Source of the DNA: Roseimaritima multifibrata | Lineage (GTDB): Bacteria; Planctomycetota; Planctomycetia; Pirellulales; Pirellulaceae | DNA length: 64,000 nt | NCBI RefSeq assembly: GCF_007741495.1 | Contig: NZ_CP036262.1 | Span: 2,046,001-2,110,000, forward strand | Direction: 5' to 3' | Shown: piece by piece, positions 5,891 to 26,799 of the stretch | How the letters are laid out: every line of letters begins with the position of its first letter | Numbering within the stretch: position 1 is the first letter of the stretch | Program-made: the position numbers and the translations under genes | The notes under the pieces: model-generated | Database searches by the model: none | The model's input: only the letters and a program-made list of their open reading frames with translations | What the model was told of the DNA's origin: nothing

Positions 5891-5899
5891 GTCGGGTTT

Positions 5900-6275: not shown

Positions 6276-6297
6276 AACTCGCAAGTCTCTAAGCCGA

Positions 6298-6624: not shown

Positions 6625-6640
6625 TAATGGGCGACTATCT

Positions 6641-7243: not shown

Positions 7244-7457
7244 GTTTTTCTTTTAAAAGAATTTTTTGCGGGCTTGAGTAGGGGGACGCTGCAACCCGCG
7301 TTCCACCCTCGCAATTGATGGACGAAGCGAAATCAATAATGCCAAGCGGCATATGATTTGCATCTTGCTTTTAGCTAGAAAGCGGATGGAAGCAATTTTG
7401 TCCCTAGGACGCGCCGGTCGGTCCGTATGCTTTAAGCCTGTAGATGGAGAGAGAAAG

Positions 7458-7808: not shown

Positions 7809-7881
7809 CATGGCGTAATTCCTCCTCCTTGCGATTGCAGGTTAGGCGAGTGAGGGAGTCGCGCGAAATTGGAGCAAAATC

Positions 7882-8376: not shown

Positions 8377-8404
8377 AATTTTCCGAAAGGCGGAGGCAAT
8401 TAAA

Positions 8405-8872
8405 ATGGTTTCAGCGCACGAAGTCCGTGGCACGGTATATGTCGAAAAACTTGCACGTTACGAGCAGCGTTTGGAGATCCCGGTGGTTCCGGGCGAATTG
8501 ATCGATTGGCTTGACGCGGTAAGTCGGGTGGCGACCGATGTTGCAGTCGACTTTCGGCAACGCTTGCGAAAAGCTCATGCAGAACTCTTTGCGGTCATTC
8601 TGGAACGTGATCTTGCACTTGCCGCTCGTGTTGAGGAAATGAAACACGAAGGCGTCAGGCTGGCTCAGCAGGCCCGGAGAATTGCCAATGCATTTGAGCG
8701 ACTTGCCAAAGACTGCAGGGCTGAGGAACCTGATGAAGCGAATTTACTTGAAGAAGTGCAACGCTATTCCGCTGAAGCGTTATCAATGATTATCGGCGTT
8801 CGAAAACTCGATTCCGCTGTTACGACTTGGTACATGGAAGCGTTTGACCGTGACCGAGGAATCGTCGACTAG
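8405..8872 (+). CDS. Conserved hypothetical, all-helical protein
   Basis: I chose the ATG at 8405 (155 aa) because AGGCGGAGG lies 7-8 nt upstream; an upstream start at 8294 would overlap the preceding gene by about 80 bp. The protein is soluble, charged and predicted to be nearly all helix or coiled coil (about residues 40-125). I recognise no family. Its place between a glycine-zipper protein and a Pmp3-type protein suggests an envelope-stress cluster, by context only. Confidence 0.55.
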   Translation: MVSAHEVRGTVYVEKLARYEQRLEIPVVPGELIDWLDAVSRVATDVAVDFRQRLRKAHAELFAVILERDLALAARVEEMKHEGVRLAQQARRIANAFERLAKDCRAEEPDEANLLEEVQRYSAEALSMIIGVRKLDSAVTTWYMEAFDRDRGIVD

Positions 8873-8905
8873 ACGCTACGCAAGTCTACACATGAGGAGA
8901 TCAGT

Positions 8906-9088
8906 ATGAACTTTATCCGGCTTTTAATCGTATTCATTCTACCGCCCGTTTCTGTCTGGATGCAGTTTGGAATCAGTAAGTACTTTTGGATCAATTGCCT
9001 GTTGACGTTGCTAGGGTTCGTGCCAGGGGTATTGCATGCGGCCTATATAATGGCTTCTCGCCCGCCAGGGTTAACGAGATTGAACTGA
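8906..9088 (+). CDS. YqaE/Pmp3 family small membrane protein
   Basis: A 60-residue protein made almost entirely of two transmembrane helices, with the family pattern I-x-x-F-I-L-P-P-V in helix 1 and L-T-L-L-G-F-x-P-G-x-x-H-A-x-Y in helix 2. Pmp3/UPF0057 proteins are small proteolipids linked to membrane potential and salt or cold stress. A GGAG ribosome-binding site lies at 8893-8897. Confidence 0.9.
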   Translation: MNFIRLLIVFILPPVSVWMQFGISKYFWINCLLTLLGFVPGVLHAAYIMASRPPGLTRLN

Positions 9089-9485
9089 TGTTTTTGGCAA
9101 GTCAGGTCGGTTCTCCGGCAGCCCTCCCTTTTTTGATACACCACGTCCAATCTCGATCCGCCGTTGGACACGTTGGTTTTCCAATGGTTAAGTACTGGAA
9201 TGTGGCATCGCGGTTTCTTGATTTGATTTTCGCGAGAACCATTGTGCCTGAAATCCGTGCCACGGCCGTTCCGTGCCACGGCCGTTCCGTGCTACGGTTG
9301 AACGGACGACATCGATGCTTGGAGAGTTGTTTGCCGTTCAGCAAGCGGACATCTAATGGCCGTTCCTTTCCACTGTACTGACCGAAGTGAAAGAATCCCC
9401 GTTTCATCTGCTCCGGGCCTACATCGCGGCTCAGGCAAGTACGAAACTAAAATGACTCGGTCGACCGGCAAGGAAATCGAAATCG
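9089..9485. other. Intergenic between convergent genes
   Basis: No supportable gene is seen. The stretch contains a small tandem repeat at 9255-9297: two perfect copies of CCGTGCCACGGCCGTT and a partial third. Each copy holds a self-complementary CCGTG...CACGG core that could fold as a hairpin between the convergent genes. Confidence 0.5.
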
Positions 9486-10691
9486 CTAGACTTCCTCGTC
9501 CACAAAAATGATGTGGCGGAAGTAGTGTTGTGACTCGAAACTGGCCCCGAGTGCCCCGATCAGTAGCCCCAGCGAACTGCTTAAGATACACATTCGCAGC
9601 TTTAACACGAATCCGACTTCGCCTGCGCTTAATTCCGAAGAAGCTGCCCAGGATTTGATTAACGTTGCCCCGAATAGAGAGCTGCTGATCGTCGTACCAA
9701 TTAGCAGTAGGCACAGCCACATCACAATCATACCGATTAGGACAATACCGTTTGCGGAGGCCATGGTAACGATTGTTTGCTCGCTGGGCCGATGCCCGTG
9801 GTTCAGCAGCAACTGTTGTCGAATGATTACGTAGCCTGTCGTTAGTAACCAAGCCGCAGCGGTCAGCAACGCAAGACTGGACCAGGTTTGCGCTAATGCC
9901 AAATCCCACGCTTCGGCGGTCATCAGTAGGACAACGACGGTTGATACCGATGCGAGCGTCAACCCGCTCAGTCGACGCGGAAATTGCCAAGGGCGTGCGG
10001 CGGCAATCGCTTCGATGATCTCGCGGCGGTTGATCCATCCGGCTCGCATCGCAAAGGCTGGCACACCCATCCGAAGACCGTCCGCATTTGTTTCTTCCAG
10101 CCTTTGGTCGGCGACTTCACTGAGTGAAATTCGTTGCTGTTCGATCTGCTTTTCAGTGAGTGAATCCATCGCATCGAGCCTGTCGGCATCGTCAGGGTGT
10201 GACATCAGGTTCGTCAGGTCATCGCTGCTGTTGAGACCCGACAAATGCGAGAGCGAGTGCAGCATCAACCGGCTGAGCCGATGAGCCACGCGACGCACCC
10301 GCGTTGCTTCATCGGTTGTCTCGCCAAACGCGACCGGATCAATCAACGAGAAAGAAAGCACCGCCGCATCGAGTGGTCGACTGAGTGCAGCCAAACAATG
10401 GGGCGTGTAGTAACTTGCAAGGTCAGCGGCTGTCAGCACAAGGGAGTAGTCCCAATGTCGTGAATCGCGTTCTTTGACGGCTTGTTGCAGCAGGACGCTT
10501 GGCTGCACGACACTTGCATCAACCAATTCAGGTCTCCGGACAATGAACAAGTTGAAATCGAAGTCAGGAAAGTGTTCTTGCAGATACTCTTTTGAAGTCT
10601 TCGTAGCGAAATGGGTTGCCCGCTCGTCGACTTCGTCTAGCAAGCCGGCGATGATGATTCCGATTTCGATTAGCGGCTTGGATTTCGTCAT
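9486..10691 (-). CDS. Membrane protein with degenerate metzincin-like N-terminal domain
   Basis: This 401-residue protein has a soluble N-terminal domain (about 1-215) and four C-terminal membrane helices (about 235-390). The N-terminal domain reads like a metzincin or archaemetzincin fold: a strand-like segment (SLVLTAADL), a VLSFSLID strand, then a helix with H145-S-L-S-H149-L-S-G152-L-N followed by LTNLM as a possible Met-turn. The glutamate of HExxH is Ser146 and the third His position is Asn154, so if the homology is real the enzyme is inactive. It lies 67 bp downstream of the SPW gene in the same direction and may be the last gene of that operon. Confidence 0.7.
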   Translation of the reverse strand: MTKSKPLIEIGIIIAGLLDEVDERATHFATKTSKEYLQEHFPDFDFNLFIVRRPELVDASVVQPSVLLQQAVKERDSRHWDYSLVLTAADLASYYTPHCLAALSRPLDAAVLSFSLIDPVAFGETTDEATRVRRVAHRLSRLMLHSLSHLSGLNSSDDLTNLMSHPDDADRLDAMDSLTEKQIEQQRISLSEVADQRLEETNADGLRMGVPAFAMRAGWINRREIIEAIAAARPWQFPRRLSGLTLASVSTVVVLLMTAEAWDLALAQTWSSLALLTAAAWLLTTGYVIIRQQLLLNHGHRPSEQTIVTMASANGIVLIGMIVMWLCLLLIGTTISSSLFGATLIKSWAASSELSAGEVGFVLKLRMCILSSSLGLLIGALGASFESQHYFRHIIFVDEEV

Positions 10692-10758
10692 GCTGTTTGG
10701 TGGCCATGATTGTCCCGGTCACGAGCGTGTGGAGGGAGCGGGTTTGGTGACAACCTTC

Positions 10759-11097
10759 CTACACTCGCTCACGCCAAGCGATAGGCGGAGTCGATGCTTC
10801 ATTCGGAATCAGTGCGATCATTAATAGAAACAGTCCGACGACGATGTGATTTTGATGCTCAAACGGCGGAGGCGTTCCCGCGAATCGTCCCCAAATGATT
10901 AAGCCAACGGCGACCAACAAGGTCAATAAATGAGCGTTTCGAGTGGGATGCCAGTAGGATAATCCGGCAAGGAGGGCGATCAGGAACGCGACACCCAGAT
11001 CGGCAGCCATCAGTAACTGGTCTGAAGATGCGTGAAAAATCCAAGGGCTCATCGCGAGCCAAACCGCTGTCATGATTTCGACCACTCGTCCCCACAT
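10759..11097 (-). CDS. SPW repeat membrane protein
   Basis: A 112-residue membrane protein with two pairs of helices. The SPW signature sits in the first half (AVWLAMSPWIF), and a degenerate counterpart (FEHQNHIVVGLFLLMIALIP) in the second half. Its ATG shares one base with the stop of the VKOR-like gene; a GTG at 11098-11100 overlapping that stop by 4 bp is equally plausible. Translational coupling to VKOR and the epimerase indicates a common pathway, but the biochemical function of SPW proteins is not established. Confidence 0.85.
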   Translation of the reverse strand: MWGRVVEIMTAVWLAMSPWIFHASSDQLLMAADLGVAFLIALLAGLSYWHPTRNAHLLTLLVAVGLIIWGRFAGTPPPFEHQNHIVVGLFLLMIALIPNEASTPPIAWRERV

Positions 11098-11708
11098 CAC
11101 GCCTCCTCCCTCGCCAACAGCGTTTCCGCTGCTCGCTCAAACGCTTCGTCGCGATATCCCCAAAAAGCGCGCCATAGTAGTCGCCTGTCGTGATTCTGTG
11201 TCCAAACGAGCTTCAGATACATTAAAGATGCTCGGACCTCATCCCAAGCCCAATAGACCAGGATCAGCGAGATAAGAGCAGTGACCAAGCAAAGAAAGCA
11301 CCAATCGCCAACGATGAACGCTTGGCATAACACCAAGATTACGCTGACGATGCCCAGGGGAATCACATCGATACCAAACAAAATTACCAGCCACGGTCGG
11401 TATTGCCATCGCCGGGGCGACCCGGCGAAACCAAGGATCGCGTCGCCGAGGTAGGCGATCACGCCGAGCGCCGCATCATGAATTCCCAAAATTCCGTACA
11501 TCTTTTTCGCTGTATCGGATTTCAGCACGTGATTGCTACCCTCGCCGAAGACCGGGTCCCATGAACTTTCGATTAGGCCCCACTGATACATTGACAGATG
11601 TGTCGAAATCGCCGCCGCGACGAATGCAAGCAGGCAAATCGGAATCCGCTGACTCCAAGCCGATGGATTGTGTTTGTAAGGTGGGACGTGTGCGTTAAGG
11701 TCGGTCAT
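11097..11708 (-). CDS. Vitamin K epoxide reductase (VKOR)-like membrane protein
   Basis: The predicted 203-residue protein starts at the ATG at 11708, overlapping the epimerase stop by 4 bp (ATGA). It has a four-to-five-helix VKOR-type core with a lumenal segment resembling the family's WDPVFGxGSxxVLxSD stretch and a CxxC pair (Cys137, Cys140) in GDWCFLC. The loop cysteines that relay electrons in classical VKORs are not seen; Cys25 in the first helix and Cys128 are the only others. It may therefore act on a different quinone or thiol partner. Confidence 0.82.
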   Translation of the reverse strand: MTDLNAHVPPYKHNPSAWSQRIPICLLAFVAAAISTHLSMYQWGLIESSWDPVFGEGSNHVLKSDTAKKMYGILGIHDAALGVIAYLGDAILGFAGSPRRWQYRPWLVILFGIDVIPLGIVSVILVLCQAFIVGDWCFLCLVTALISLILVYWAWDEVRASLMYLKLVWTQNHDRRLLWRAFWGYRDEAFERAAETLLAREEA

Positions 11709-12763
11709 TTTTCCAGCCCGTTCATCTGGTACCAATGATCGGGGGCATCCATCAGTGATTCGGTGATCTTCGGCAATGTCGTGGCGAGGGCATGCTTTGG
11801 TTCCCAGCCGAGCAACTCTTTCGCCCGCGAGATATTGAGAGCGTAGTGGTCATCGGCCATGTCGACCATGAACGGTTTGATAAATGCTTCGCCACCGGAC
11901 AGCGTGTCGGTGACCGCCGCCCCCGCTTTGGCAACGGGTTTGGGGACATGCAACGTCGTCCACTCGTGTGCGTGTAGCTGTTTCCCGATCAGGTTTTGCA
12001 ACGTTTGATAGGCGATCGGCTCGGCTTCGCCAATTAGAATGGCGGTCTTCGGGGCGATGGCATCACGTCGCTCGACTGTACGGCCGATAGCGTCCACCAC
12101 ATCGTCAAGGTGGACGACCGACTGTCCCGCGTCGGTATTGCCGGGAAAGAAGTGCCCTTGAAAATCGTTTTCGTAAATCCGTTTGACTTGCTGGACAAGC
12201 GTTGGTTGACAGCCGAAGTCCGTATAGATCCCAGCGATCCGCAGAAATACAGAACGGACATTGGGGTGGCCGTCTCGAATCAATCGCTCGGTTTCGATCT
12301 TGCTTTGGGGATAGGGCCATTTAGCCTCTTGTGGATCGTCTTCACGGATATGATCGCCGATTGCACAGGGGGCATGTACCAGCATGGTGCTGGTGAAGAC
12401 AAACTGATCGAATTCAAAATCTTCCAGTTCATTGAGTAACCGGTCGGTTCCATTGATTGTGACTTTTTCGTACAGGTCGCTATCCTCGCCCGAGAAATCA
12501 TAATAAGCCGCCATATGCACGACGCTTGCCAGTTTGCCTCCCGTCAACCGTCGAACCTTTTCCATTGCCGCTCGAACGGAAACCGAATTGGTGACATCAC
12601 ATTCGATGTCGCGAACATGTTCTTGGGCCTTCGGAGGCTCTGGCCAGCCGACGCGATCGAATCCGAAAACTCGGTACCCCAGTTCGGTCAAGCGAGTGCA
12701 GACAGGACGACCAAGCAGACCGGAGCTGCCGGTAACAATTACGGCGGGGCGAGTTTCAGACAT
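11705..12763 (-). CDS. NAD-dependent epimerase/dehydratase (extended SDR)
   Basis: A 352-residue protein from the ATG at 12763, with GGAAGGAAA just upstream. A Rossmann glycine motif (TGSSGLLGRP) at residues 8-17 and the SDR catalytic Tyr-x-x-x-Lys as YPQSK are visible; the Ser-region is FVFTSTMLVHAP. It is the first gene of the coupled epimerase-VKOR-SPW operon. The substrate is probably a nucleotide sugar or related polyol, not deducible from sequence. A longer reading from 12811 adds an improbable basic extension. Confidence 0.88.
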   Translation of the reverse strand: MSETRPAVIVTGSSGLLGRPVCTRLTELGYRVFGFDRVGWPEPPKAQEHVRDIECDVTNSVSVRAAMEKVRRLTGGKLASVVHMAAYYDFSGEDSDLYEKVTINGTDRLLNELEDFEFDQFVFTSTMLVHAPCAIGDHIREDDPQEAKWPYPQSKIETERLIRDGHPNVRSVFLRIAGIYTDFGCQPTLVQQVKRIYENDFQGHFFPGNTDAGQSVVHLDDVVDAIGRTVERRDAIAPKTAILIGEAEPIAYQTLQNLIGKQLHAHEWTTLHVPKPVAKAGAAVTDTLSGGEAFIKPFMVDMADDHYALNISRAKELLGWEPKHALATTLPKITESLMDAPDHWYQMNGLEK

Positions 12764-13554: not shown

Positions 13555-14538
13555 ATGAATGGTTCGGCGTCTCAGTCAGCACTTGATACTGCGGGGAAGG
13601 GTGCGGAGAAAATTTCCGAACTGTTTTACTGGATGGCCGGTGGCGCGTCGGTGATTTGGATCGTCGTGATCGGATTAGTGATTTACGCGATTTATTCGCG
13701 ACGCGAACATCCCCTGCGGATGACTCGCTGGTTGGTAATCGGCGGCGGTGCTGTCGTGCCGGTAATCGTCTTGACATTGCTGCTGAGTTACGGGCTTGCG
13801 CTGCTGCCAGATCTACAGCGCCCCGCACCGGCAGGAAGTCCAGTCATCGAGGTGGTGGGCGTGCGCTGGTGGTGGCGGGTCATTTACCGTGACGCGGCTG
13901 GCGATCGTATCGAAACCGCGAATGAAATCTACTTGCCGGTCGATCAACCAGTCGAGTTTCAATTGACCAGTGAGGACGTGATTCATTCGTTTTGGATTCC
14001 GACGCTTGGCGGGAAGGTGGATATGATGCCAGGACGCACCACTCGCTTGAAACTCCATCCAACGCAAGAGGGAGTTTTTAGTGGAGTGTGTGCTGAGTAC
14101 TGCGGTACGGCCCATTCGCAAATGCGTTTCCGAGTTGTCGTCACCGATCAGGCAAGTTTCGAAGAGTGGCTCGTTAAGCAAGGAAATGATCTCGCGGTGC
14201 CCCGCGACCGGTCCGGTGGTTCCGGACCAGAGCGTTTGTTGCCTGACGCTACAAGTGCGCCGACGGCCCAGGGCGAGCAAGTTTTCCTGTCGCGGGGCTG
14301 TTCCGCCTGTCATGCCATCCGGGGCACATCCGCCGACGGGAGCGTCGGCCCCGATTTGACCCACTTTGGTTCACGGCTATCTATCGCTGCTGGTGTGCTG
14401 GATAACACGCCGGAGAATCTTGCCTTGTGGCTTGAGGATACACATGGAGTGAAGCCTGGTGTGGAGATGCCTGAGTTCGAAGCCCTTTGCGACACTGAGA
14501 TTGATTTTTTAGTTCAATTCTTAGGATCATTGCAATGA
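13555..14538 (+). CDS. ctaC: Cytochrome c oxidase subunit II with fused cytochrome c domain
   Basis: A 327-residue protein with two N-terminal membrane helices and a periplasmic cupredoxin domain. The CuA site is C179-A-E-Y-C183-G-T-A-H-S-Q-M, and the aromatic electron-entry patch is VRWWWRV. A C-terminal class I cytochrome c domain binds haem through C249-S-A-C252-H253, with Met ligand probably in VEMPEF. This architecture is the caa3-type subunit II, where the fused haem accepts electrons from soluble cytochrome c. The gene overlaps the subunit I gene by 4 bp (ATGA). Confidence 0.95.
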   Translation: MNGSASQSALDTAGKGAEKISELFYWMAGGASVIWIVVIGLVIYAIYSRREHPLRMTRWLVIGGGAVVPVIVLTLLLSYGLALLPDLQRPAPAGSPVIEVVGVRWWWRVIYRDAAGDRIETANEIYLPVDQPVEFQLTSEDVIHSFWIPTLGGKVDMMPGRTTRLKLHPTQEGVFSGVCAEYCGTAHSQMRFRVVVTDQASFEEWLVKQGNDLAVPRDRSGGSGPERLLPDATSAPTAQGEQVFLSRGCSACHAIRGTSADGSVGPDLTHFGSRLSIAAGVLDNTPENLALWLEDTHGVKPGVEMPEFEALCDTEIDFLVQFLGSLQ

Positions 14539-17018
14539 ACGGACAGGCCCAGCGGTTACTGAATGCGTGGCGTAAACCGAAGGGGTGGCGGTACTGGTCT
14601 GCCGTAAATAATTCCGAAGTCGGACTTTGGTACACGATTACCGCGTTTGCCTTTTTTCTGTTCGGCGGTCTGCTCGCGCTAGCCATGCGAATTCAACTTG
14701 CGGTTCCCGGCAACGATTTTCTCACGGCGGAGCAATACAACCAAGTTTTTACGATGCATGGCAGCGTCATGATGTTCCTGTTCGCCGTGCCGATTCTTGA
14801 AGCGATCTCGATCCTATTGCTTCCCCAGATGATGGGAGCAAGAGACCTTCCGTTTCCTCGTTTGTCAGCGTATGGGTTCTGGTCGTTCTTGATCGGCGGT
14901 GTCTTCGTTTGCGGTTCGTTGTTCTTTGGTGCCGGACCACGCGGCGGATGGTTCATGTATCCGCCAATGACGACTCAATATCAAACCGACGTAGGAGCCG
15001 ATATCTGGTTGCTGGGATTGTCGTTCATCGAAATTGCGTCCATTGCGGCGGCAGTCGAACTGATCGTCGGCGTCCTGAAATGTCGCCCACCTGGAATGCG
15101 ATTGAACCTGATTCCACTTTATGCTTGGTACATTCTGGTGGTCGCGGGAATGATTCTGTTCGCCTTTCCTCCGTTGATTGCCGGGGACCTCTTGATGGAG
15201 TTGGAACGGGCACTCGATTGGCCGTTCTTTGACGCATCCCGCGGCGGTGATCCAATGTTGTGGCAGCATCTGTTTTGGATTTTCGGACATCCTGAAGTCT
15301 ATATCGTGTTCCTGCCATCGATCGCATTGGTGGCGATGATCGTGCCGACGTTTGCTCGGACACCGATGGTCGGGTACAGCTGGATTGTGCTGGCGGCGGT
15401 CGGCACGGGGTTCCTGAGTTTTGGGTTGTGGGTTCATCATATGTTCACAACCGGTTTACCGGGGATCACAATCGGGATCTTCTCTGCCGCATCCGAAGCG
15501 GTAGCAATTCCAACCGGGGTGCAAATATTTTGCTTCATCGCTACGCTGCTGGTTGGTCGAGTGACAAAGTCAGTCTGTTTGCTATTCGTATTGGCGGGAC
15601 TTGCGACGTTCATTATCGGCGGTCTGACGGGAGTGATGGTCGCGGTCGCACCGTTTGACTACCAAGCGCATGACACCTATTTCATCGTTGGACATTTACA
15701 CTACGTCTTAGTTGGCGGCACGATCTTTCCGATTGTTGCAGGCTTCTACTACTTTTATCCCCTGATCACAGGGAAGCTGCTTTCTGAGCGACTTGGCACG
15801 ATTGCGTTTTGGCTAATGATGATCGGCTTCAACGTTAGTTTTTTTCCGATGCATCTAACTGGATTGATCGGGATGCCGCGGCGAGTCTATACGTATCCCG
15901 CAGAGATGGGATTCGATAACTTGAATTTGCTCTCGTCAATTGGAGCTTTTGTATTGGCGGGCGGTTTTCTGGTTTTCTTGTGGGACCTCCTGCGGCCCAA
16001 GCGTAAACAACCTGCCGCGCCCAGGAACGTGTGGAATGCCGGAACGCTCGAATGGTTGGCTGAGGTTCCCGACCAACCGTGGGGCGTCCGCAGCATTCCT
16101 GTCATCAAGTCCCGATATCCGCTCTGGGATCAAGAGAACTTCGTTCGTGATGTCGACGAGGGAAAATTCTACCTTCCGGACGCTGAGGAAGGTCTGCGAG
16201 AGACGCTTGTGACCTCAACGGTTGAGGCGACGCCAATCCTGTGCCTACGAGTTCCCGGCCCAACGTTTCTGAGTTTTTGGGCGGCAGTCTTCACCGCAGG
16301 AGTGTTCGTCTTCAGCACGTTTCATTGGTACGTCGCCGCGGGTGTCAGCGGGGTTTTCGCACTCTTTACCATCCTGCGATGGCTTTGGACCGGCACCGCG
16401 ATCATTCCCAAAAAGACCGAGAAGGATGTTGGCTTGGGGCTGACACTGCCGACTTACGTTTCGGGACCCGATGCGGTCGGCTGGTGGGCCATGTTCATTA
16501 CGATGCTTGGCGACATGACCGCGTTTATGTCGCTGGTATTTGGCTATTTTTTCTACTGGACCGTTCACGAAGATTTTCCACCCAAAGGTGTTCAAGGTCC
16601 TGGAATTTTCTGGCCGATGATTTCGCTGGCTGCTGCCTTGGCGGCCTGGGGGCTGATGCTGCTCTCGCGAAAACTTAATCGTCGGAAACAAGCTGGCGGA
16701 TTTTACATCAGTACATTGGCGTCCGTTGCTTTGGCATTTGTGGTTGCCGGTACGCTGGTCGCCGGACCTAGGCTGCACAACATGGACCCCACGCAGCACG
16801 TTTATCAAGCCTCCGTTTGCGTCTTGGTTTTATGGACGGTGGTGCATCTTGCGGTCGGGATTGTGATGCAACTGTACTGCATCGCAAGGCGGGCGGCAGG
16901 GAAGATGACGGACCGATTTGATGCCGACATTGTCAACGTGACACTGTATTGGCATTTCATGATGTTGACCGTAGGTATCACGGGACTGACGATTGCCTTG
17001 TTTCCGCTGGTGGCGTGA
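14535..17018 (+). CDS. ctaD: Cytochrome c oxidase subunit I fused to subunit III-like domain
   Basis: The first approximately 530 of 827 residues are a haem-copper oxidase subunit I. Ligands are His75 (low-spin haem), H252-P-E-V-Y256 (CuB with Tyr cross-link), His301-His302 (CuB) and His387/His389 (haem a3 and haem a). After a hydrophilic linker the last approximately 270 residues form a subunit III-like bundle (GPDAVGWWAMFITMLGDMTAFMSL and following helices). The I-III fusion is known in some caa3-type oxidases. It is the proton-pumping catalytic core, inner membrane, working with the ctaC product. Confidence 0.95.
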   Translation: MNGQAQRLLNAWRKPKGWRYWSAVNNSEVGLWYTITAFAFFLFGGLLALAMRIQLAVPGNDFLTAEQYNQVFTMHGSVMMFLFAVPILEAISILLLPQMMGARDLPFPRLSAYGFWSFLIGGVFVCGSLFFGAGPRGGWFMYPPMTTQYQTDVGADIWLLGLSFIEIASIAAAVELIVGVLKCRPPGMRLNLIPLYAWYILVVAGMILFAFPPLIAGDLLMELERALDWPFFDASRGGDPMLWQHLFWIFGHPEVYIVFLPSIALVAMIVPTFARTPMVGYSWIVLAAVGTGFLSFGLWVHHMFTTGLPGITIGIFSAASEAVAIPTGVQIFCFIATLLVGRVTKSVCLLFVLAGLATFIIGGLTGVMVAVAPFDYQAHDTYFIVGHLHYVLVGGTIFPIVAGFYYFYPLITGKLLSERLGTIAFWLMMIGFNVSFFPMHLTGLIGMPRRVYTYPAEMGFDNLNLLSSIGAFVLAGGFLVFLWDLLRPKRKQPAAPRNVWNAGTLEWLAEVPDQPWGVRSIPVIKSRYPLWDQENFVRDVDEGKFYLPDAEEGLRETLVTSTVEATPILCLRVPGPTFLSFWAAVFTAGVFVFSTFHWYVAAGVSGVFALFTILRWLWTGTAIIPKKTEKDVGLGLTLPTYVSGPDAVGWWAMFITMLGDMTAFMSLVFGYFFYWTVHEDFPPKGVQGPGIFWPMISLAAALAAWGLMLLSRKLNRRKQAGGFYISTLASVALAFVVAGTLVAGPRLHNMDPTQHVYQASVCVLVLWTVVHLAVGIVMQLYCIARRAAGKMTDRFDADIVNVTLYWHFMMLTVGITGLTIALFPLVA

Positions 17019-17023
17019 GGAGT

Positions 17024-17452
17024 ATGAATATCAAAGATTCGGCTGCAGCAGAACGCAAACACTCCGATCGCACGGAGCGGTACGGTTTGCGCTATACCCC
17101 AAATCTATGGTGGCTTACGTACTCGCCACTCTGTTGGGCAGCCCATTTTCTGGCCAGCTATTTGACCGCCGCGATTTACTGCGCCAAGGGTGGTTCGGCG
17201 GATGGCGACGCATTGCCGGTCCGGATCGCCGTTGCAATCTTCACCATCATTGCACTGTCGTTGATCGCGTCGGTAGGCAGAAGAAGTTTGCGAGTGCATT
17301 GTGTGGGACAGGCGACGCTGCCACATGATGATGACACGCTGCTCGATGAGCAGCGTTTCCTCGGATTTGCTGCGTTGCTGTTGTCGTTGCTGAGCGGTAT
17401 CGCAACGCTCTACACAGCACTCGTCTTCGTTTTTATGGAGACTTGTCACTGA
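17024..17452 (+). CDS. Small membrane protein of the oxidase operon
   Basis: A 142-residue protein from the ATG at 17024, only 5 bp after ctaD and with GAGGAG at its ribosome site. It has three or four membrane helices (about 28-50, 66-85, 115-140). A family name is not certain; position and topology suggest an accessory or assembly subunit of the oxidase, comparable to the small subunit IV slot of other cta operons. Its stop overlaps the ctaG start by one base. Confidence 0.7.
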   Translation: MNIKDSAAAERKHSDRTERYGLRYTPNLWWLTYSPLCWAAHFLASYLTAAIYCAKGGSADGDALPVRIAVAIFTIIALSLIASVGRRSLRVHCVGQATLPHDDDTLLDEQRFLGFAALLLSLLSGIATLYTALVFVFMETCH

Positions 17453-18132
17453 TGCGATTGGCGACTTGGAATCTTGGCTGGATTTTGCTCGCGTTGGCGT
17501 GGATGGGGCCACTTCCGCGATGGGCCGAAAGTTCGTTTGCCGCGCACATGACGCTGCATATGTTGATCGTCGCTGTAGTGGCACCGCTCCTCTCCATCGC
17601 GATGGCGGGGCTGCGTTTTGATCCTGTACGCAAAGCTCCTGCCTTGTTTTCGCCAATCCCTGCTTCTGTGGGCGAGTTACTGATCGTGTGGGCGTGGCAC
17701 GCTCCGGGATTACATCACTGGGCACGCCATGACCTGTTCGGACTGATCATCGAGCAGGGAATGTTTCTGGCTTCTGGAATGTGGGTGTGGCTGTCCGCAT
17801 TCGGTGGTAGTCAGCCACGCAGCCGCGCGCGAGCGGCTGCCGGAGTCATTGGCCTATTGCTGACTTCGATGCACATGACTTTCCTGGGGGCGTTGCTTGC
17901 GCTGTCGCCACGTCTGTTGTATCAACACCATCATGCGGCATCAGGACTGACGCCGTTGGTGGATCAACATCTCGGTGGCGCGGTGATGCTGGTGGTCGGT
18001 GGGATTGCCTACCTGGCTGGCGGACTTTGGTTGACGAGAGACTTGGTCCGTGAGGTAAATTTCCAGCCAGCTGCCAGGTCCAAAGTGCCCTCAACACAAG
18101 CTGGAAGCTTACGCCAGGAGGTGGTTCAATGA
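17452..18132 (+). CDS. ctaG: CtaG-like cytochrome c oxidase assembly protein (caa3 type)
   Basis: A 226-residue polytopic protein with the caa3_CtaG pattern: H-M-T-L-H-M-L after the first helix, PxSVGELLIVWAWHAPGLHHWA in the middle and TSMHMTFLGALLALSPRLLY late. Histidine- and methionine-rich membrane edges fit copper handling for oxidase maturation. The ATG at 17452 shares one base with the preceding stop, and its own stop overlaps the next gene by 4 bp. An in-frame TTG at 17443 is a less likely start. Confidence 0.88.
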   Translation: MRLATWNLGWILLALAWMGPLPRWAESSFAAHMTLHMLIVAVVAPLLSIAMAGLRFDPVRKAPALFSPIPASVGELLIVWAWHAPGLHHWARHDLFGLIIEQGMFLASGMWVWLSAFGGSQPRSRARAAAGVIGLLLTSMHMTFLGALLALSPRLLYQHHHAASGLTPLVDQHLGGAVMLVVGGIAYLAGGLWLTRDLVREVNFQPAARSKVPSTQAGSLRQEVVQ

Positions 18133-19220
18133 AACGACGACTAGGAGAGCTGACAATCTTGCTTGCCTCGCTGGGGATACTTGGCGTGATGGTACTGGTG
18201 TCGGGAATCGTGCCGATCAAGGCCAGCAGCGGGCATTGGCCGATGACACGGTTGATATTGGATTTCGCAAGCGATCGATCGGTGGGGTTGCACAGTGCTG
18301 GTATCGAGGTTCCGCCGCTGGATGAACCAGGAATGGTCCAGCTCGGTGCGGCAATCTTCGACAACAATTGTCGTTGGTGTCACGGCGCACCAGGTTTCCC
18401 GTCGCCGCCCGTCGCCGCACAGATGACTCCTCATCCGCCCAAGTTGGCGGAAGCGGTCGAGACCTGGGACGATGCCGAGTTGTTTTACATTCTGAAACAC
18501 GGAATCAAGTTTACTGGGATGCCTGCATGGCCGACACAATCGCATGGTGAAGAAATTTGGCCTGTCGTCGCTTTTTTAAGGGAGTTGCCTGATACCGACG
18601 CCGACACCTACCTTGACTTGATTCAATCCGAGGTTGCCAAAACCGATGCGATCGAAACGCCGATCGCCTATGAAGTTGCAACGTTGTGTGCTGCGTGCCA
18701 TGGGATGGCGGACAGCCGACCAACAAGTGATCGAGTTCCTGTTTTAGCCTCCCAAAACGGGGCGTACCTAAAAAACTCCTTGTTGGCCTATGAAGCTGGC
18801 GAGCGAGGCAGCGGTGCGATGATGCCGATTGCACATCGCTTAACGGACGACCAAATCAGTGAACTTTCTAGCTACTACGCCGAGCAAATTCGCGAACCGG
18901 CGGTGATGAAAGACTCATCTGACGAAGAACTGATTGAAGCAGGTCGTCTACTTGCTGCTAACGGTGATCGGTCCGGCAAAATCCCTTCGTGCGTCGACTG
19001 TCACGGGCCAGGTGAAATAATGCGCAGCAGGGATTACCCAAGACTAGCTGGTCAGCCCGCTCGTTATCTGCAACAACAACTTGTGTTATTCGCCGAAGTG
19101 AAACGTGGCGGCAGTGACAACGCCTCGTTGATGGACTCCATCGCCGACAAACTAAGCGATGCGCAACGGCTTGCACTTTCTGCGTACTACGCTTCGCTAA
19201 ACGTCGACCGAAAGGAATAA
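18129..19220 (+). CDS. Tri-haem cytochrome c
   Basis: A 363-residue protein with one N-terminal membrane anchor followed by three cytochrome c modules. The haem sites are CRWCH (about 79), CAACH (about 183) and CVDCH (about 286). Met axial-ligand candidates are GMPAW, MMPIA and a later SLMDS. Modules 2 and 3 look like the c4/FixP-type pair. Overlap with ctaG shows it belongs to the oxidase operon, where it likely carries electrons to the subunit II haem. Confidence 0.9.
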   Translation: MKRRLGELTILLASLGILGVMVLVSGIVPIKASSGHWPMTRLILDFASDRSVGLHSAGIEVPPLDEPGMVQLGAAIFDNNCRWCHGAPGFPSPPVAAQMTPHPPKLAEAVETWDDAELFYILKHGIKFTGMPAWPTQSHGEEIWPVVAFLRELPDTDADTYLDLIQSEVAKTDAIETPIAYEVATLCAACHGMADSRPTSDRVPVLASQNGAYLKNSLLAYEAGERGSGAMMPIAHRLTDDQISELSSYYAEQIREPAVMKDSSDEELIEAGRLLAANGDRSGKIPSCVDCHGPGEIMRSRDYPRLAGQPARYLQQQLVLFAEVKRGGSDNASLMDSIADKLSDAQRLALSAYYASLNVDRKE

Positions 19221-20970: not shown

Positions 20971-23900
20971 CTAGGTTCCTTGGTTCACCGAGTCTAGCCA
21001 AGACGCCACTTCGCTCGCTTCGGGTCGTTCGCAGAGACGGAATTTTTTTAGGCTCCCGTCGGCATCGTCGTACATCAGCATGGTGGCTGCGGTTAGGTCG
21101 GAGGCGATCGGCGTGTCGATCAAATTGGCCGAGTCCGCTGAACTCATCCGTCCAAGCAACCGAATTTCAAGATCATGGTGCACCGAACGTGGCAACCACC
21201 GCGTCAGCGTTTCGGCGGTCTGGCAACAGAGGATCGTATAGACCCCTGCTTGCGGACCATCTTTTAGAATGCTTTGGAGGGCATCGGACCCGCTGAGGGT
21301 TTGTTGTTCGTTTAGAGAGAACTGATAGGAATCGGATTGTCGTAGTTCACGGAACCGTTCCAGCGGGGTGATGACGATCACCGTAGGTGGTTGATCTTTG
21401 ATCGCTTCGTCTCCCTCGGCCAAGCGTTTCGCGACCAAGGCGTTCAAGCGATTTAATTCGCTTTCGCAATCCCGCGGCGACACCGATTCGATGGTTAATC
21501 CGGTTGCCTGCAACCAATCGCTTGGGCGTTCTCCTCCTTCTTCGGAGATTCGATTTCCGTCCAATAAAACGATTTCAGGGGATTGAGAGTAGCGGTCTTG
21601 CCAGTCCGCAAACATCGAAGAGAGGGCTACTGTTAGAACCGACAGCGTTGGTTCCGCGGTCGCGACAACAAGTGCGTTGCGACCGGTTTGAGGCTGAAAA
21701 CGAAGAAGCGTTGGCGGCCCGATTTCGATCGATTCTCCCAGCAGTCCTCGTAGTTGACGGGCCCCTTCCGGTTTGGATTGGAAAGCGGCCTGAAGCAATC
21801 GCGGAGTCCACTTGGTTGGTCGATTCCCCTCAAAAATGACCACAGGTTCGTGATCTTGCTCCGCTTCCCATTTGGAATCCCTGGCGGTGATTTCCGCCAA
21901 CATTCGTTGTTGCTCGTCGCCCGAAAGCCAAGCGATTTGGAAAGGTTGATTGCCTTCGGTTAACCCTCCGGCATCGTTGTAAATCGCTTCTCCGGGGCGG
22001 TTGATCACGCGGGCCGCTGGATTGTCGTCGGCCAGGATTAATGCTGCATCGGCTTCGCTGGACTGCAGGGCAATTCGGACAGCCATTTGTCCCAGCGTTG
22101 CCCGTGGCAACGCGTAGGAGCCTGCCAGTGATTGGCTACTGAGGATGACGTGCATGCCAAACGAACGCCCTTGCCGCACCAAGCGGTCGAGGTACATCGC
22201 GCAGTCGGCAGCAATTCGATCGTCATGAAGGAAGATTTCTTGAAATTCATCGATTACCAACAGGATTCGCGGTAGCGACTGATGGGTGGCTTTGCGGTAA
22301 CCGCCAAGATCCTGAACGCGAGCTTCCCGGAATTGTTCGCCGCGTTGTTGTAGTTCGGCGTCCAAACGTTGGAGGACACTGCGTCCGAACTCCCTTTCGC
22401 TTTCGATCCCGATAACGCGAGCATGGGGAAGAGGCCCATCCGCGTAGGCTTTGAATTCAACCCCTTTCTTAAAATCCAGTAAGTACATCTGTAGTTCCGC
22501 GGGCGTGTAAAGCATCGCTCCCGCGGTGATGATCGTATGCAGCAGCGTGCTTTTTCCCGACCCCGTTTTACCGGCGATCAAAACATGTTGGCGAACGCCT
22601 TCCCCTAGTTTCAGTGCAAGGCTGCGGTAGGCGCCTTGGCTGCCGATCGGGATTTCCAAAGTATCGGACGACTCGGACGTTCCCATCGAACCGGCGGGAA
22701 GGATTTTTTGCAGAGGGATTTCGACGCGATTGGCTGCGACCGCCGCTTGCCCGATAACCTCGGTCCAGCCCAGTTGATCGGGAATTGGAGGGGGAGCACA
22801 GGGGAGGAACGCGTGTTTTGAGAACGAATGGTCTAGGTAGCTCCACTCGTTTTCGGAATCGATCCGCATGCGCATCAGGCGGGGGTCCTCCAACGAGGGG
22901 AATTCCTTCGGCCACGGCAGCGTTTCGTCTCGGACAAGAATCAGGAACGTGCCACATCGGCGTGCACTGTCGACCATCGCCCGCAGATGATTCGCCGATT
23001 CGGGGGTGATTCCGCCGGGCAGTCCAACCCCGGCGACGATTCGATAAGGTTCGGCGAGGGATCCCGCGATTTGGTTATAATCTTCGATCGTATCGAATTG
23101 GTCGCGTAAGCAGGATTGCAACACGTCTTCATTGTGCTGCGTCCATTCGGCTAACCGAGTTTCAATCTGTGCGGGAGCCGTCCAGACGCGGTTGTTTACC
23201 AATGTTCCGTCATGATCGGACAGCGCGATCAAACCCGCAAAATGCTGGCCGCGTCCGATGGGGTCAAGCAATGTCGCTTGGCAACGTCCGGGAGTGACGC
23301 CTCGGAAGGCATTCCACAGCAGGGAATGAACCAGTTCGACCGCCTTCTCTGTTTTCTCTGGCGGGCAGTCGATCACGATTCCTGCATGCAGTCTGCGATG
23401 GAGGGCAACGGGTAACCACTGGGGCAGCGCTTCGGATGCGGAATCGGGTGAACCTTGGACCCCGGCGTAGGTTGCCGACTGCCCCATCACTTGGCGAAGC
23501 GGATCGTGGATATCGATCCGTCCGACAGGAAGGTAATCAAGCGTACTGGAACCGGAGCATTGCGGCGGTGTCTGCCAAACGGGAAAACGTTCTTGCCAAA
23601 TGCGTTGATAGTCGCGGATGCGTTGTAGCCCGCGTTCGACGGTGACCGTGAATCGCTGATTGAAATGTTCTATTTCGCTTTGGTTCTTTTCGAGTAGCCG
23701 TTCTTGGCGAACGCTAAAATCTTCTTCAACGCGCTGCAGGCGGGTTTGGATCTGGGCTGTCAGTTCTTCTGCCTGGGTGTGCATCTTTTGATCGACAGCA
23801 TCCATGTTCCGTTGGAATTCCATCCCGATTTCGATCTGTTTTCCTTGCAGTTGCTCCCGTTCGGTCTTCTCATGTGCTGCTAATTTTTCATTGGTTTCGG

Positions 23901-24906
23901 CAATGTGTTCACGCTGCCACCGTTCGGCTGCCTTCAGGTGGAAGTCGCGGGTCTTGAGCAGGTCCTGAGCAAAAGCTTGGGCCTTTTTCTTCGCAATCGC
24001 TCGCCCTGTTTTTGCCGCGCGTTCTCCCATCGCAGCGAAGTGTTCGGCCGCCGGGTAGTCGCGACGCGTCTGTCGCCGCAGTGGAAACTGCAGGATCGCA
24101 AGGACGCTGAAGAACAGAAACAAAGCGGTTCCCAGTCCTGAAAGTAGTGCGATCAGCAGGTGTTCTTCGACAAACAGGAAACAACCGATTGACCAGCAGA
24201 GTACAAAAATGGCCGCTCCTAATGGCAGGATCCAAAAAGTATCGACCAGTTTTGAGGGAGTACTGCTGTAGAGTTTGCGAAGGTTTTCGCGGATCATTCG
24301 GTTGGCGGTTTCGATCGCATCGACCGCTTCTTGAACCGATTCCGGTGCTGCTTCTTGATCGGATTCCGGGATTGGGGGGACCGTCGGCAAACCGCTTAAA
24401 CGCCTAGCCGTCACATCGCGGACCTCGTCCAGCGATTCCACTAAGGGGAGCATCGCTTGATCCAGCCGCGATTCATGCTTTAAGCGTTTCTCGGTGGGTA
24501 GCGGTTTTTGCGTTTCGTATTGATGTTGTACCGCAGCACACCGAGCACGCACTTTATTGGCGATCGCTTGATGTTCTTCTTTCCGCTTCTGTTCGAAACG
24601 GACGGCCAAGCGTTTTAATTCGGTTCGCAGTTCAACGGTTTCTGTTTCGTATTTTGAAATCAACCGTTCGTTTGCGTCGTCCCACGTGCGTAGAAAGTTG
24701 TTTCGTTGTTGACGGCAATCTTGAAGCGTTTGTTGTCGCAGTTGTGCCGCTTGCTCTTGCTCATTTTTCAATTCTGCTGCGTGATCTTCTGCTAGTTTCT
24801 CGCGTAGCTTGTCTGCATTGGCCGCGCGGTCCATCAGACCGCGCAGCAGTCGCTCCTGGCGCTGAGGGGAAAGCAATCCTGTGGGGGCCGGAAGCGTTTT
24901 CGGCAT
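20971..24906 (-). CDS. FtsK/SpoIIIE-type ATPase of a type VII-like module
   Basis: A 1311-residue protein from the ATG at 24906, 4 bp after the upstream stop. In order: a charged coiled coil (about 1-205), two membrane helices (about 220-275), a second long coiled coil (about 310-450), and a domain resembling a degenerate nucleotide-binding fold (TLLDPIGRGQHFAGL). Then comes a full FtsK/SpoIIIE domain with Walker A GKTGSGKST at about 779-787 and Walker B ILLVIDEFQ near 880, and a last degenerate ATPase-like domain (about 1040-1311). Multiple ATPase modules after membrane anchors recall EssC/EccC, but FHA domains are absent. The operon with two WXG100-like proteins supports a secretion or conflict role, not DNA segregation. 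Confidence 0.85.
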   Translation of the reverse strand: MPKTLPAPTGLLSPQRQERLLRGLMDRAANADKLREKLAEDHAAELKNEQEQAAQLRQQTLQDCRQQRNNFLRTWDDANERLISKYETETVELRTELKRLAVRFEQKRKEEHQAIANKVRARCAAVQHQYETQKPLPTEKRLKHESRLDQAMLPLVESLDEVRDVTARRLSGLPTVPPIPESDQEAAPESVQEAVDAIETANRMIRENLRKLYSSTPSKLVDTFWILPLGAAIFVLCWSIGCFLFVEEHLLIALLSGLGTALFLFFSVLAILQFPLRRQTRRDYPAAEHFAAMGERAAKTGRAIAKKKAQAFAQDLLKTRDFHLKAAERWQREHIAETNEKLAAHEKTEREQLQGKQIEIGMEFQRNMDAVDQKMHTQAEELTAQIQTRLQRVEEDFSVRQERLLEKNQSEIEHFNQRFTVTVERGLQRIRDYQRIWQERFPVWQTPPQCSGSSTLDYLPVGRIDIHDPLRQVMGQSATYAGVQGSPDSASEALPQWLPVALHRRLHAGIVIDCPPEKTEKAVELVHSLLWNAFRGVTPGRCQATLLDPIGRGQHFAGLIALSDHDGTLVNNRVWTAPAQIETRLAEWTQHNEDVLQSCLRDQFDTIEDYNQIAGSLAEPYRIVAGVGLPGGITPESANHLRAMVDSARRCGTFLILVRDETLPWPKEFPSLEDPRLMRMRIDSENEWSYLDHSFSKHAFLPCAPPPIPDQLGWTEVIGQAAVAANRVEIPLQKILPAGSMGTSESSDTLEIPIGSQGAYRSLALKLGEGVRQHVLIAGKTGSGKSTLLHTIITAGAMLYTPAELQMYLLDFKKGVEFKAYADGPLPHARVIGIESEREFGRSVLQRLDAELQQRGEQFREARVQDLGGYRKATHQSLPRILLVIDEFQEIFLHDDRIAADCAMYLDRLVRQGRSFGMHVILSSQSLAGSYALPRATLGQMAVRIALQSSEADAALILADDNPAARVINRPGEAIYNDAGGLTEGNQPFQIAWLSGDEQQRMLAEITARDSKWEAEQDHEPVVIFEGNRPTKWTPRLLQAAFQSKPEGARQLRGLLGESIEIGPPTLLRFQPQTGRNALVVATAEPTLSVLTVALSSMFADWQDRYSQSPEIVLLDGNRISEEGGERPSDWLQATGLTIESVSPRDCESELNRLNALVAKRLAEGDEAIKDQPPTVIVITPLERFRELRQSDSYQFSLNEQQTLSGSDALQSILKDGPQAGVYTILCCQTAETLTRWLPRSVHHDLEIRLLGRMSSADSANLIDTPIASDLTAATMLMYDDADGSLKKFRLCERPEASEVASWLDSVNQGT

Positions 24907-24910
24907 GTTG

Positions 24911-25165
24911 TTATTCCTGGTTGCGGTCGCGTAGATCTTGTTCGGCCGTCTGCAGTACATCACGCAATTCTGTTAGTACCGCTGACAGCCGATTCAGCGA
25001 AACAGGAATGGGAGCTAGGTGTTCGTCTTCAAAGCGAGTGCGTCGCTGGTCCTGCCAGTCTTCTTTGATTTCGCTCCATAGGCGGGCGAAATCGCGCCAG
25101 TCGCGGCGACTTCGGTTTTCGCAGTCGGTCAATTGTCCGAGAGTGGTTTGGATGCGGGCGCTCAT
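24911..25165 (-). CDS. WXG100-like small helical protein (copy 2)
   Basis: 84 residues, predicted as a helix-turn-helix hairpin. The central DWQDQRRTRFEDEHL parallels TWRDEQQRKFASEFE in the gene at 25670: in both a Trp-x-Asp takes the place of the WXG turn and is followed by [RK]F five positions after the Asp. Length and topology are those of WXG100 proteins, which form dimers and are recognised by FtsK-type ATPases. Its start overlaps the preceding stop by 4 bp and the ATPase begins 4 bp after its stop. The motif is divergent, so membership is inferred. Confidence 0.65.
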   Translation of the reverse strand: MSARIQTTLGQLTDCENRSRRDWRDFARLWSEIKEDWQDQRRTRFEDEHLAPIPVSLNRLSAVLTELRDVLQTAEQDLRDRNQE

Positions 25166-25662
25166 GGCTCTGGATCGACTGGAGGAAGTTTGGTTTGACT
25201 GTATTGCTGGAGGACGGAGAGCATTTGTTGCAAATCGGAACGGGCTCTTGGAATCCCCGTATCAAGCGTCTGTTGCATGTTGCCGATGGGGCCGGTCGCC
25301 GCATTGAGTGCCGATTCAATTTGCAGGCGATGGTGGCGGCAGCGAAGCTGTTTTTCGCGACAAAACGCCATCCGATTTTTTGCCGTCGCAACCCGCTTTT
25401 TGGCTTCGGTTGCGGGGGCACGATCCCCAGGGCGGGTGGTCGATTGTTTTTGCTGAAGGTCATCGAGCGCGGCGTTTAAGTCCCGCTCGGCTAATGTGGT
25501 TTGTTGTTTCCAGTACGCAGGCTGATCGCTGGTGATCCATTCTTGGGCATGCTGTAGGGCGTGGCGAATTTCCTGGACCGATACATCCATGGCGTGAGCC
25601 CATTTCAGCAGTCCCCCATCAAGACGCTGTAGAACTTCTAAGTCACGGACATTGCTTTGCAT
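25162..25662 (-). CDS. Coiled-coil protein of the type VII-like module
   Basis: A 166-residue protein from the ATG at 25662, 7 bp after the WXG100-like stop. It is essentially all helix with heptad-like stretches (ERDLNAALDDLQQKQ; KKRVATAKNRMAF) and no membrane segment or signal peptide. I do not recognise a family. Tight packing between the two WXG100-like genes suggests a third structural or adaptor component. The C-terminus (YSQTKLPPVDPEP) is flexible. Confidence 0.65.
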   Translation of the reverse strand: MQSNVRDLEVLQRLDGGLLKWAHAMDVSVQEIRHALQHAQEWITSDQPAYWKQQTTLAERDLNAALDDLQQKQSTTRPGDRAPATEAKKRVATAKNRMAFCREKQLRCRHHRLQIESALNAATGPIGNMQQTLDTGIPRARSDLQQMLSVLQQYSQTKLPPVDPEP

Positions 25663-25669
25663 AAGGATC

Positions 25670-25939
25670 TCAACCGCGCAAATAGGATTCGATCTGATCG
25701 GCTTTCCGTACCAGATAGGGAAGGTGTTGCTCGGTGGCCGCAAGCAAACGGTTCATCTGCCGAAGTTGCTGTTCAAATTCAGAGGCAAATTTTCGTTGCT
25801 GTTCGTCACGCCAAGTCTGCTCTAATTCGTGCATGTGACTGGCCAAGGCAGCGTGGCGTTGCTTCATATCTTCCGCATAATCGCGCAGATGGCTGGCGAA
25901 ACGACGCAGTTCGTCGGGGTCGGCAATGGCTTGGTTCAT
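25670..25939 (-). CDS. WXG100-like small helical protein (copy 1)
   Basis: 89 residues from the ATG at 25939, overlapping the TPR gene stop by 4 bp. Two helices flank a central TWRDEQQRKF turn at about residues 44-53, i.e. W-x-D in place of the canonical W-x-G, with conserved Phe after it. N-terminal DPDELRRFASHLRDYAEDM resembles the first helix of WXG100 proteins. It probably pairs with the product at 24911 as an EsxA/EsxB-like heterodimer; this is inference from length, motif and operon. Confidence 0.7.
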   Translation of the reverse strand: MNQAIADPDELRRFASHLRDYAEDMKQRHAALASHMHELEQTWRDEQQRKFASEFEQQLRQMNRLLAATEQHLPYLVRKADQIESYLRG

Positions 25940-26799
25940 GAACGTGCTGGGGAGTTGGAGTTGGCTGCAAGGTCTCGTTCGGCGAGCGCCATTTTGAGAA
26001 AACGTTCGTATCGCTTCAATGAGGCTGGCAGACCGACATGGGACGCTAGGTCGACTGCCGCCTGAAGGGCGGTGATCCGCGTAGGAAGGTCCGCCGGAAC
26101 CGCACGTCGCATCGCTGCCGCCCGGTATTCGGGGAGGGCTTTCATCGGCTTGCCAAGGGCTTGGTAACATTGTCCCCGCAGCAAATAAGCAGCCGGGGCA
26201 AGGGCATCGATTCGGGTAGCCGTTGCCACTGCATCGATCGCTTCTTTGAATTTTTCCAGATCGCGGAGGGCTTCGCCTAGCACAACCCGCAATGCCGTAT
26301 CTTCTGGCGATCTTGCCAGTCTTCCGCGGCAGACCTCGACCCGTCGCGCCGCCCAATTGACTTTGGCTCGTTCCAGTTCCAGTTCCGAATCGACCGTCTG
26401 GTACCGGATCGCAAGTTCACGTGCGGAGCGGAGGTGTTGTAGCGATTGTGCTAATTTGGCTTCTTCGAATTCCCACAATAGCCTGCGATCGTCGGGCTGG
26501 ACCTGCAGGCCTCGCTGAAGCGTTTTGCGAGCCTCGATGGGGCGATTTTCGGTTCGATAGATTTGTGCCAATTCTAAATAGGCGTCGACGTCCGCAGGAT
26601 TGGGCTGTAGGAAGCGTTCTAGTTCTTGCCGACGTTGAAGCTGGACCGCTGAATCGACAGGTTGAGGAGATTCATCACTGGGATCCTCGGCAACGACGCC
26701 ACGGCGGAGCAATTCTTCCGGTTGAACGGGTCGCCACGGTCCACCCTCCAATGGGCTTAATTGGATGGAAGGATTGTTATCAGGGGCGTCTTCAGACAT
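25936..26799 (-). CDS. TPR-repeat protein heading the type VII-like operon
   Basis: A 287-residue cytoplasmic protein. After a disordered acidic-Pro N-terminus (1-55), TPR-like units are visible: NPADVDAYLELAQIYRTENR, EDTALRVVLGEALRDLEKFK and APAAYLLRGQCYQALGKPMK, with a charged helical insert between the first and second. It is first in the operon and coupled to the WXG100-like gene, so it may act as a chaperone or adaptor for the small proteins. No catalytic motif is seen. Confidence 0.8.
   Translation of the reverse strand: MSEDAPDNNPSIQLSPLEGGPWRPVQPEELLRRGVVAEDPSDESPQPVDSAVQLQRRQELERFLQPNPADVDAYLELAQIYRTENRPIEARKTLQRGLQVQPDDRRLLWEFEEAKLAQSLQHLRSARELAIRYQTVDSELELERAKVNWAARRVEVCRGRLARSPEDTALRVVLGEALRDLEKFKEAIDAVATATRIDALAPAAYLLRGQCYQALGKPMKALPEYRAAAMRRAVPADLPTRITALQAAVDLASHVGLPASLKRYERFLKMALAERDLAANSNSPARS

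Follow-up and report, generated by a model that had tools for sequence, protein, structure and literature searches.

A WXG100/EssC-like four-gene cassette co-inherited across Planctomycetota, a candidate diderm export module

A five-gene operon with two W-x-D hairpins and an EccC/EssC-like ATPase

The 64,000-nt stretch of DNA analysed here (the window) carries five genes on its minus strand in the order TPR-A-CC-B-ATPase (Table 1). ORF translations place them in the head-to-tail arrangement described in a first-pass annotation made from the sequence alone, with 4-bp overlaps at the TPR/A and CC/B junctions, a 7-bp gap between A and CC, and a 4-bp gap between B and the ATPase gene. The same annotation had reported that no toxin gene is adjacent, which is correct for the window. 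Among the ORF translations, no vWA, PP2C, kinase, or McrBC-like genes were recognised beside the operon, and no mobility genes were seen in the cassette. On the plus strand, the translations of positions 13555-19220 read as a cytochrome c oxidase cluster that includes a subunit II fused to cytochrome c, an 827-aa ORF resembling a subunit I-III fusion, a CtaG-like protein, and a multi-heme cytochrome c.

Table 1. Features of the operon, in window coordinates
Feature	Coordinates	Strand	Evidence
TPR protein, 287 aa, heads the operon; subclade-specific accessory	25936..26799	-	
A: WXG100-type helical hairpin, 89 aa	25670..25939	-	PF06013 above cut-off; HP0062 and EsxA/EsxB profile matches
A turn motif W43-R44-D45	25805..25813	-	W-x-D invariant in 31/31 homologues
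CC: long two-helix hairpin, 166 aa, third conserved component	25162..25662	-	AlphaFold2; conserved family
B: diverged WXG100-like hairpin, 84 aa	24911..25165	-	Weak TIGR03930/PF06013 matches, EsxA profile match, cross-matches with A
B turn motif W37-Q38-D39	25049..25057	-	W and D invariant in 42 aligned homologues; W-x-D in 33/33
EccC/EssC-like ATPase, 1311 aa: coiled coil, two TM helices, coiled coil, three RecA-like domains	20971..24906	-	
ATPase, two predicted TM helices, residues 226-268	24103..24231	-	Hydropathy; hydrophobic stretch in 69/74 full-length homologues
ATPase, first motor-like domain, P-loop absent; resembles EccC5 'DUF' domain	22732..23418	-	8rin, Z 15.0
ATPase, second motor domain, sole bearer of Walker A and B	21907..22659	-	PF01580 2.7e-25; invariant GKTGSGKS and DEF
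Walker A GKTGSGKS, ATPase residues 779-786	22549..22572	-	
Walker B end DEF, ATPase residues 886-888	22243..22251	-	
ATPase, third motor-like domain, P-loop absent; matches EccC/EssC D3 structures	20974..21834	-	6jd5, 6tv1

Protein A matches the WXG100 family of Pfam (PF06013) at 3.3e-10, with 40.5 bits against a cut-off of 27.3. When its profile was searched against the PDB, HP0062 of Helicobacter pylori (3fx7) was the nearest solved structure (2e-11) and EsxB/EsxA structures were also matched; A aligns over its full length to the HP0062 hairpin dimer and to EsxA/EsxB, and is by these matches a WXG100 protein. B lies under the same Pfam cut-off (0.023, 15.4 bits) and matches TIGR03930 of NCBIfam at 0.004. 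The B family profile aligns to EsxA (2vs0) across nearly the whole length of B (3.8e-4) and retrieves A homologues (down to 8.2e-8), the A profile retrieves B homologues (down to 4e-5), and the profile-profile comparison of the two families gives an E-value of 3.3e-5 at a probability of 72%. Taken together, these reciprocal matches indicate that B is most likely a diverged paralogue of A, which bears out the earlier proposal that both small proteins are relatives of WXG100.

Both hairpins carry the turn W-[RQ]-D-x4-[RK]-F that the first-pass annotation had noticed (WRDEQQRKF in A, WQDQRRTRF in B). The sharing is not due to chance, because in order-level relatives none of the 31 A or 33 B homologues departs from W-x-D. 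In this set W-x-G was found in 0/31 and 0/33 sequences, respectively, the longer pattern W-x-D-x5-F extends to all 31 A homologues and to 23 of the 33 B homologues, and the C-terminal signal YxxxD/E was found in neither family (0/31 and 0/33). The W and the D are also invariant across 42 aligned homologues of B. The altered signature had been attributed to a planctomycete version of the system, an attribution that did not hold up. HP0062 (PDB 3fx7, 2gts) is characterised in passages of PMC3397514 as an antiparallel hairpin dimer that has WRD instead of WXG and that clusters with an FtsK/SpoIIIE protein, and plasmid homologues from Caballeronia, Helicobacter, Rhodococcus, and Deinococcus likewise read W-x-D; judged from these sequences, the signature is neither planctomycete-specific nor a planctomycete invention. 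Those passages describe HP0062 as a single-protein dimer and report no B or CC partner.

The ATPase is nearest to EccC/EssC in both sequence and fold, as had been supposed. Its best NCBIfam match is EssC (3.1e-34, 117.9 bits against an equivalog cut-off of 778.4), followed by EccCa (4.8e-31, 108.2 bits against an equivalog cut-off of 509.15). In the AlphaFold2 model, which spans residues 440-1311 (pLDDT 85.2), the several ATPase-like domains of the earlier description are three RecA-like domains, with Walker A and B in the middle one only. The top Foldseek match was the cytoplasmic domain of Thermomonospora EccC (4nh0, E 2.6e-27), and EccC/EssC D2-D3 structures came next. VIA-align paired the first domain with the EccC5 'DUF' domain over 219 residues at 4.1 A (Z 15.0), the third with EccC/EssC D3 structures (Z 18-21), and the middle domain best with FtsK motors (Z 24-26); by sequence profile, the first motor domain of EccC outscores the second as a match to the active domain. 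Pfam searches found no FHA domain in the protein, the N-terminus of which is a coiled coil instead. Hydropathy places the two membrane helices, already part of the first-pass description, at residues 226-244 and 250-268.

This hydrophobic stretch is kept in 69 of 74 full-length ATPase homologues, with five planctomycete-type proteins lacking it; among the plasmid/CoCoNuT-type relatives, three of five lack it and the other two have one borderline stretch each. Homologues without the TM region (L115, L127, L143, L148, and L149) keep A, CC, and B where the available sequence allows. Genes at L127, L143, and L149 that appeared to be split proved to be single open frames minus the TM region; the L148 gene, of the same appearance, may be split. 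What looked like ATPase fragments in G028 and G036 reflects the ends of contigs. On a Deinococcus plasmid (L157), the gene for a TM-less ATPase is immediately preceded by one for a separate 142-aa protein with one TM helix (5165-5593), as though anchor and motor were encoded apart.

Co-inheritance of A, CC, B, and the ATPase in Planctomycetota

Gene order is conserved well outside the window: in loci collected from 60 relatives, A-CC-B-ATPase is kept in 30 Pirellulales loci, and no other conserved neighbour was found. The TPR gene, which had been counted as part of the module, is linked to the cassette in four of these loci, the window included. It heads the A-CC operon in same-genus genomes and is absent beside A in most other families, and its homologues come first at L152 and L153, where A-CC has been relocated (phmmer 3e-69 and 6.5e-58). 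On this distribution, TPR is a subclade addition that lies outside the core unit. In the 61 named loci that have enough sequence upstream of the ATPase gene, A, CC, and B precede it at 40, B only at 12 (mostly Rhodopirellula/Rubripirellula-like), CC and B at 2, and none of them at 7; no convincing hairpin ORF was seen upstream of the ATPase at L094, L116, L117, L123, L133, or L144.

An even sample of 392 Planctomycetota genomes contained A in 61, B in 63, CC in 63, and the ATPase in 62, with all four in 58 and any of them in 68; several of the partial cases are weak matches or incomplete genomes. Pairwise Fisher tests of co-occurrence, which ignore shared ancestry, gave values of about 1e-61 to 1e-63. 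Rather than occurring consistently without the small proteins, a possibility that the first-pass annotation had raised against its own proposal, the ATPase thus co-occurs with them near-perfectly across the phylum, even if 7 of the 61 loci have none adjacent. The neighbours of the cassette are not conserved and its genes scatter: TPR-A-CC lies at a separate locus from B-ATPase in G009 and G016, two genomes of the B-only group, and the four genes occupy four sites each in G164 and G146. Homologues are also found on plasmids. Because the genes are kept together even when scattered, the four proteins are expected to work together; this is the strongest evidence for the point, and it is independent of the shared-ancestry issue in the Fisher tests. 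The real unit is the four genes A-CC-B-ATPase, inherited together across many Planctomycetota. A tree in which the plasmid branches are long and the MAG labels uncertain was used for the window's nearest kin only.

The set is present in about 16% of the sampled genomes and absent from the sampled members of genera g63 and g58, so it is dispensable. This patchy presence argues against a domesticated housekeeping machine, that is, an ancient toxin-export module that lost its toxin and whose ATPase and hairpins now have a role, specific to Planctomycetota, in the envelope or in cell organisation; the Imm33-like domain borne by some CC proteins (see below) argues against it as well. Such a machine would fit the copy number of one per component in almost every positive genome, the retention of the set across many families with scattered genes still co-retained, and the largely toxin-free CC proteins, which in the window clade have no immunity gene alongside and are accompanied by an accessory TPR gene. 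On balance we consider it unlikely.

CC and the proteins that occupy its slot in relatives

In the AlphaFold2 model (pLDDT 92.4), CC is a long hairpin of two helices, residues 5-74 and 85-156, with no additional domain. In fold searches against the PDB it matched coiled coils of no particular kind (Foldseek E no better than 0.023, VIA Z about 10-11.5), and as such searches are uninformative for these shapes, we make no fold claim for CC. MHC class I helices, matched at 0.004 in the PDB profile search, were rejected as an effect of composition. The profile-profile comparison of CC with A is weak (probability 12%, E 0.0025) and offers a hint of LXG-like kinship between the first helix of CC and A; CC itself has no match to the LXG family (PF04740) in Pfam. 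What had been called an extra coiled-coil partner is indeed a constant component, better described as a long helical hairpin whose slot holds a nuclease in relatives.

One such relative is on the Helicobacter plasmid pNHP190012_1 (L154, 4125-8527), where the order is A, WHH nuclease protein, SMI1/KNR4, 77-aa protein, and FtsK ATPase. The protein in the CC slot has 340 aa and a C-terminal WHH nuclease domain (PF14414, 44.6 bits against a cut-off of 25.1), and the SMI1/KNR4 immunity-type protein (29.1 bits against a cut-off of 25.4) is encoded directly after it, so that the WXG/FtsK cassette seems to enclose a toxin-immunity pair. In three planctomycete genomes of a distant group, CC carries a fused Imm33-like domain (PF24719, above cut-off), which belongs to an immunity family; the fusions are at L168 2320-3450, L170 2225-3298, and L171 2120-3259. 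A Caballeronia plasmid has the order A, 436-aa coiled-coil protein, 113 aa, 76 aa, and FtsK ATPase within a vWA/PP2C/kinase operon with CARF, and the planctomycete locus L060 (G024:C3:500-17000, 2941-12233) reads vWA-vWA-A-436 aa coiled-coil-110 aa-ATPase-vWA-PP2C-kinase. Both 436-aa proteins fit the description of a CoCoNuT coiled coil fused to a D-ExK nuclease (PMC11090510). L060 is a CoCoNuT/TerY-P-type copy in a planctomycete genome, has a TM-less ATPase, and adjoins transposase-like fragments.

Direct similarity between CC and the slot proteins is weak, and coiled-coil bias may add to it; the values are 4.1e-8 for Deinococcus, 1.9e-6 for Rhodococcus, and 0.024 for L060, with nothing significant for the Caballeronia and Helicobacter proteins. 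The argument rests on position and on a shared C-x(1-2)-E-type motif before the second helix, recognised by eye in several copies; the cysteine of this motif is absent from the window CC. The plasmid relatives with a nuclease toxin in the CC slot suggest a protein-export or conflict machine.

An alternative is a cytoplasmic or membrane-tethered conflict or defence device that exports nothing, like the WXG100-FtsK cassette of TerY-P/CoCoNuT Type III-A, in which an FtsK-type motor would pump or sense nucleic acid and the hairpins and CC would regulate or tether effectors. Both that cassette and the window set have two WXG100-type proteins, a coiled-coil protein, and an ATPase in which the central domain alone is active (PMC11090510), the nearest described relatives lie in restriction/defence operons (PMC11090510), and the active domain resembles the FtsK DNA motor. 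TM-less ATPases, moreover, characterise the L060 and Caballeronia cassettes, which are flanked by vWA/PP2C/kinase genes, as well as five planctomycete-type homologues. However, the TerY-P/CoCoNuT ATPase has no TM helices, its coiled coil is fused to the D-ExK nuclease, and its neighbours are vWA/PP2C/kinase genes, whereas the window ATPase has two TM helices, a hydrophobic stretch retained in most full-length homologues, its CC has no nuclease, and the cassette has none of these neighbours. Across the loci from 60 relatives, the planctomycete cassette has no linked nuclease, vWA, kinase, or restriction gene, and the wide single-copy inheritance at scattered loci is unlike that of a defence island. 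PADLOC matched the generic FtsK domain only. A defence device is a somewhat improbable reading of the planctomycete set.

A candidate export module and its relation to known systems

The reading that we favour, at a probability of roughly one half, is an export module of the WXG100/EssC-like kind in a diderm, built from four core parts. We infer that hairpins A and B would pair and, alone or bound to CC, would attach to the third, degenerate motor domain of a hexameric ATPase anchored in the membrane, where ATP hydrolysis in the single active domain would drive the hairpins and the CC cargo across the inner membrane and out of the cytoplasm. The hairpins would serve as both substrates and adaptors of the membrane-anchored motor, and CC may be a cargo-carrier domain comparable to the LXG domain, most planctomycete copies having retained the carrier alone. 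Several findings count against export: ATPase homologues without TM helices, from which it follows that membrane translocation may not be needed, A and B proteins without the YxxxD/E signal, no recognised envelope partner, and no toxin at the locus.

Searches of the complete genome returned no match to EssB/YukC, YukD/EsaB, or EccB and no LXG protein above the PF04740 cut-off (all matches fell under it); no outer-membrane or other envelope component was recognised when EssB, YukD, and EccB were sought. With no FHA, EssB, YukD, or EccB, the set is not T7SSa/b. The export module would resemble T7SSa/b in its working without being one. A WXG100 protein and an EccC/EssC-type ATPase are likewise found in T7SSa/b and T7SSc-j, and T7SSa, e, and g also have paired hairpins (PMC11217815). 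Compared with T7SSa/b, the window set has no WXG motif, YxxxD/E, EssB, YukD, EccB, or FHA, its ATPase has three NTPase modules rather than the four of T7SS ATPases (PMC11217815), and its host is diderm; the main T7SS survey covers Bacillota and Actinomycetota only (PMC11217815). LXG toxins, which combine a long helical N-terminal domain, a C-terminal toxin, and small WXG100-like partners, are analogous to the plasmid CC slot, but the window CC has no PF04740 match and no toxin.

The type of system had already been noted in 2012 and 2024. In footnote 6 of Zhang et al. 2012 (PMC3482391), solo WXG domains of planctomycetes and others are described with a YueA-like ATPase of three HerA/FtsK domains, the middle alone active, and are regarded as seemingly mobile versions of T7SS. 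The Planctomycetes, the WXG protein, and the ATPase architecture agree with our set, which differs in that its genes are inherited together and in single copy; the passages concerned do not describe CC, B, TPR, W-x-D, or distribution. Bell et al. 2024 describe the CoCoNuT-linked form (PMC11090510), where the relevant passage cites Anantharaman 2012 for stand-alone copies, and a Helicobacter pan-genome study describes WxG plus FtsK as a minimal set (PMC4978471). Given these accounts, the kind is already known and the detailed planctomycete form is an addition, the new elements being the broad inheritance of the set as a unit, the constant presence of CC as the third hairpin, and the nuclease in the CC slot of relatives. 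The main text of a Planctopirus essentiality screen makes no mention of WXG or the ATPase.

Going further, we entertain as a tentative possibility that the set is a distinct, vertically kept diderm secretion system, comprising A, B, a double-length CC, and a three-module EssC-like motor with no known T7SS envelope part. Its ancestor would have exported CC-fused nucleases, and in Planctomycetota it would have become a standing machine that carries no toxin.

WXG100/EssC machinery is regarded as a trait of Gram-positive bacteria. A four-part set co-inherited across a diderm phylum makes the question of diderm WXG100 export testable in cultivable organisms, among them Rhodopirellula baltica, which carries the set (B-ATPase locus L085), with partners that can be recognised even when the genes are scattered. 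The CC slot provides a rule for finding cargo, namely whatever is fused to or inserted after CC, and the set suggests partners to seek beside the orphan H. pylori structure HP0062. More broadly, the cassette suggests a protein-export or conflict machine in bacteria seldom credited with one.
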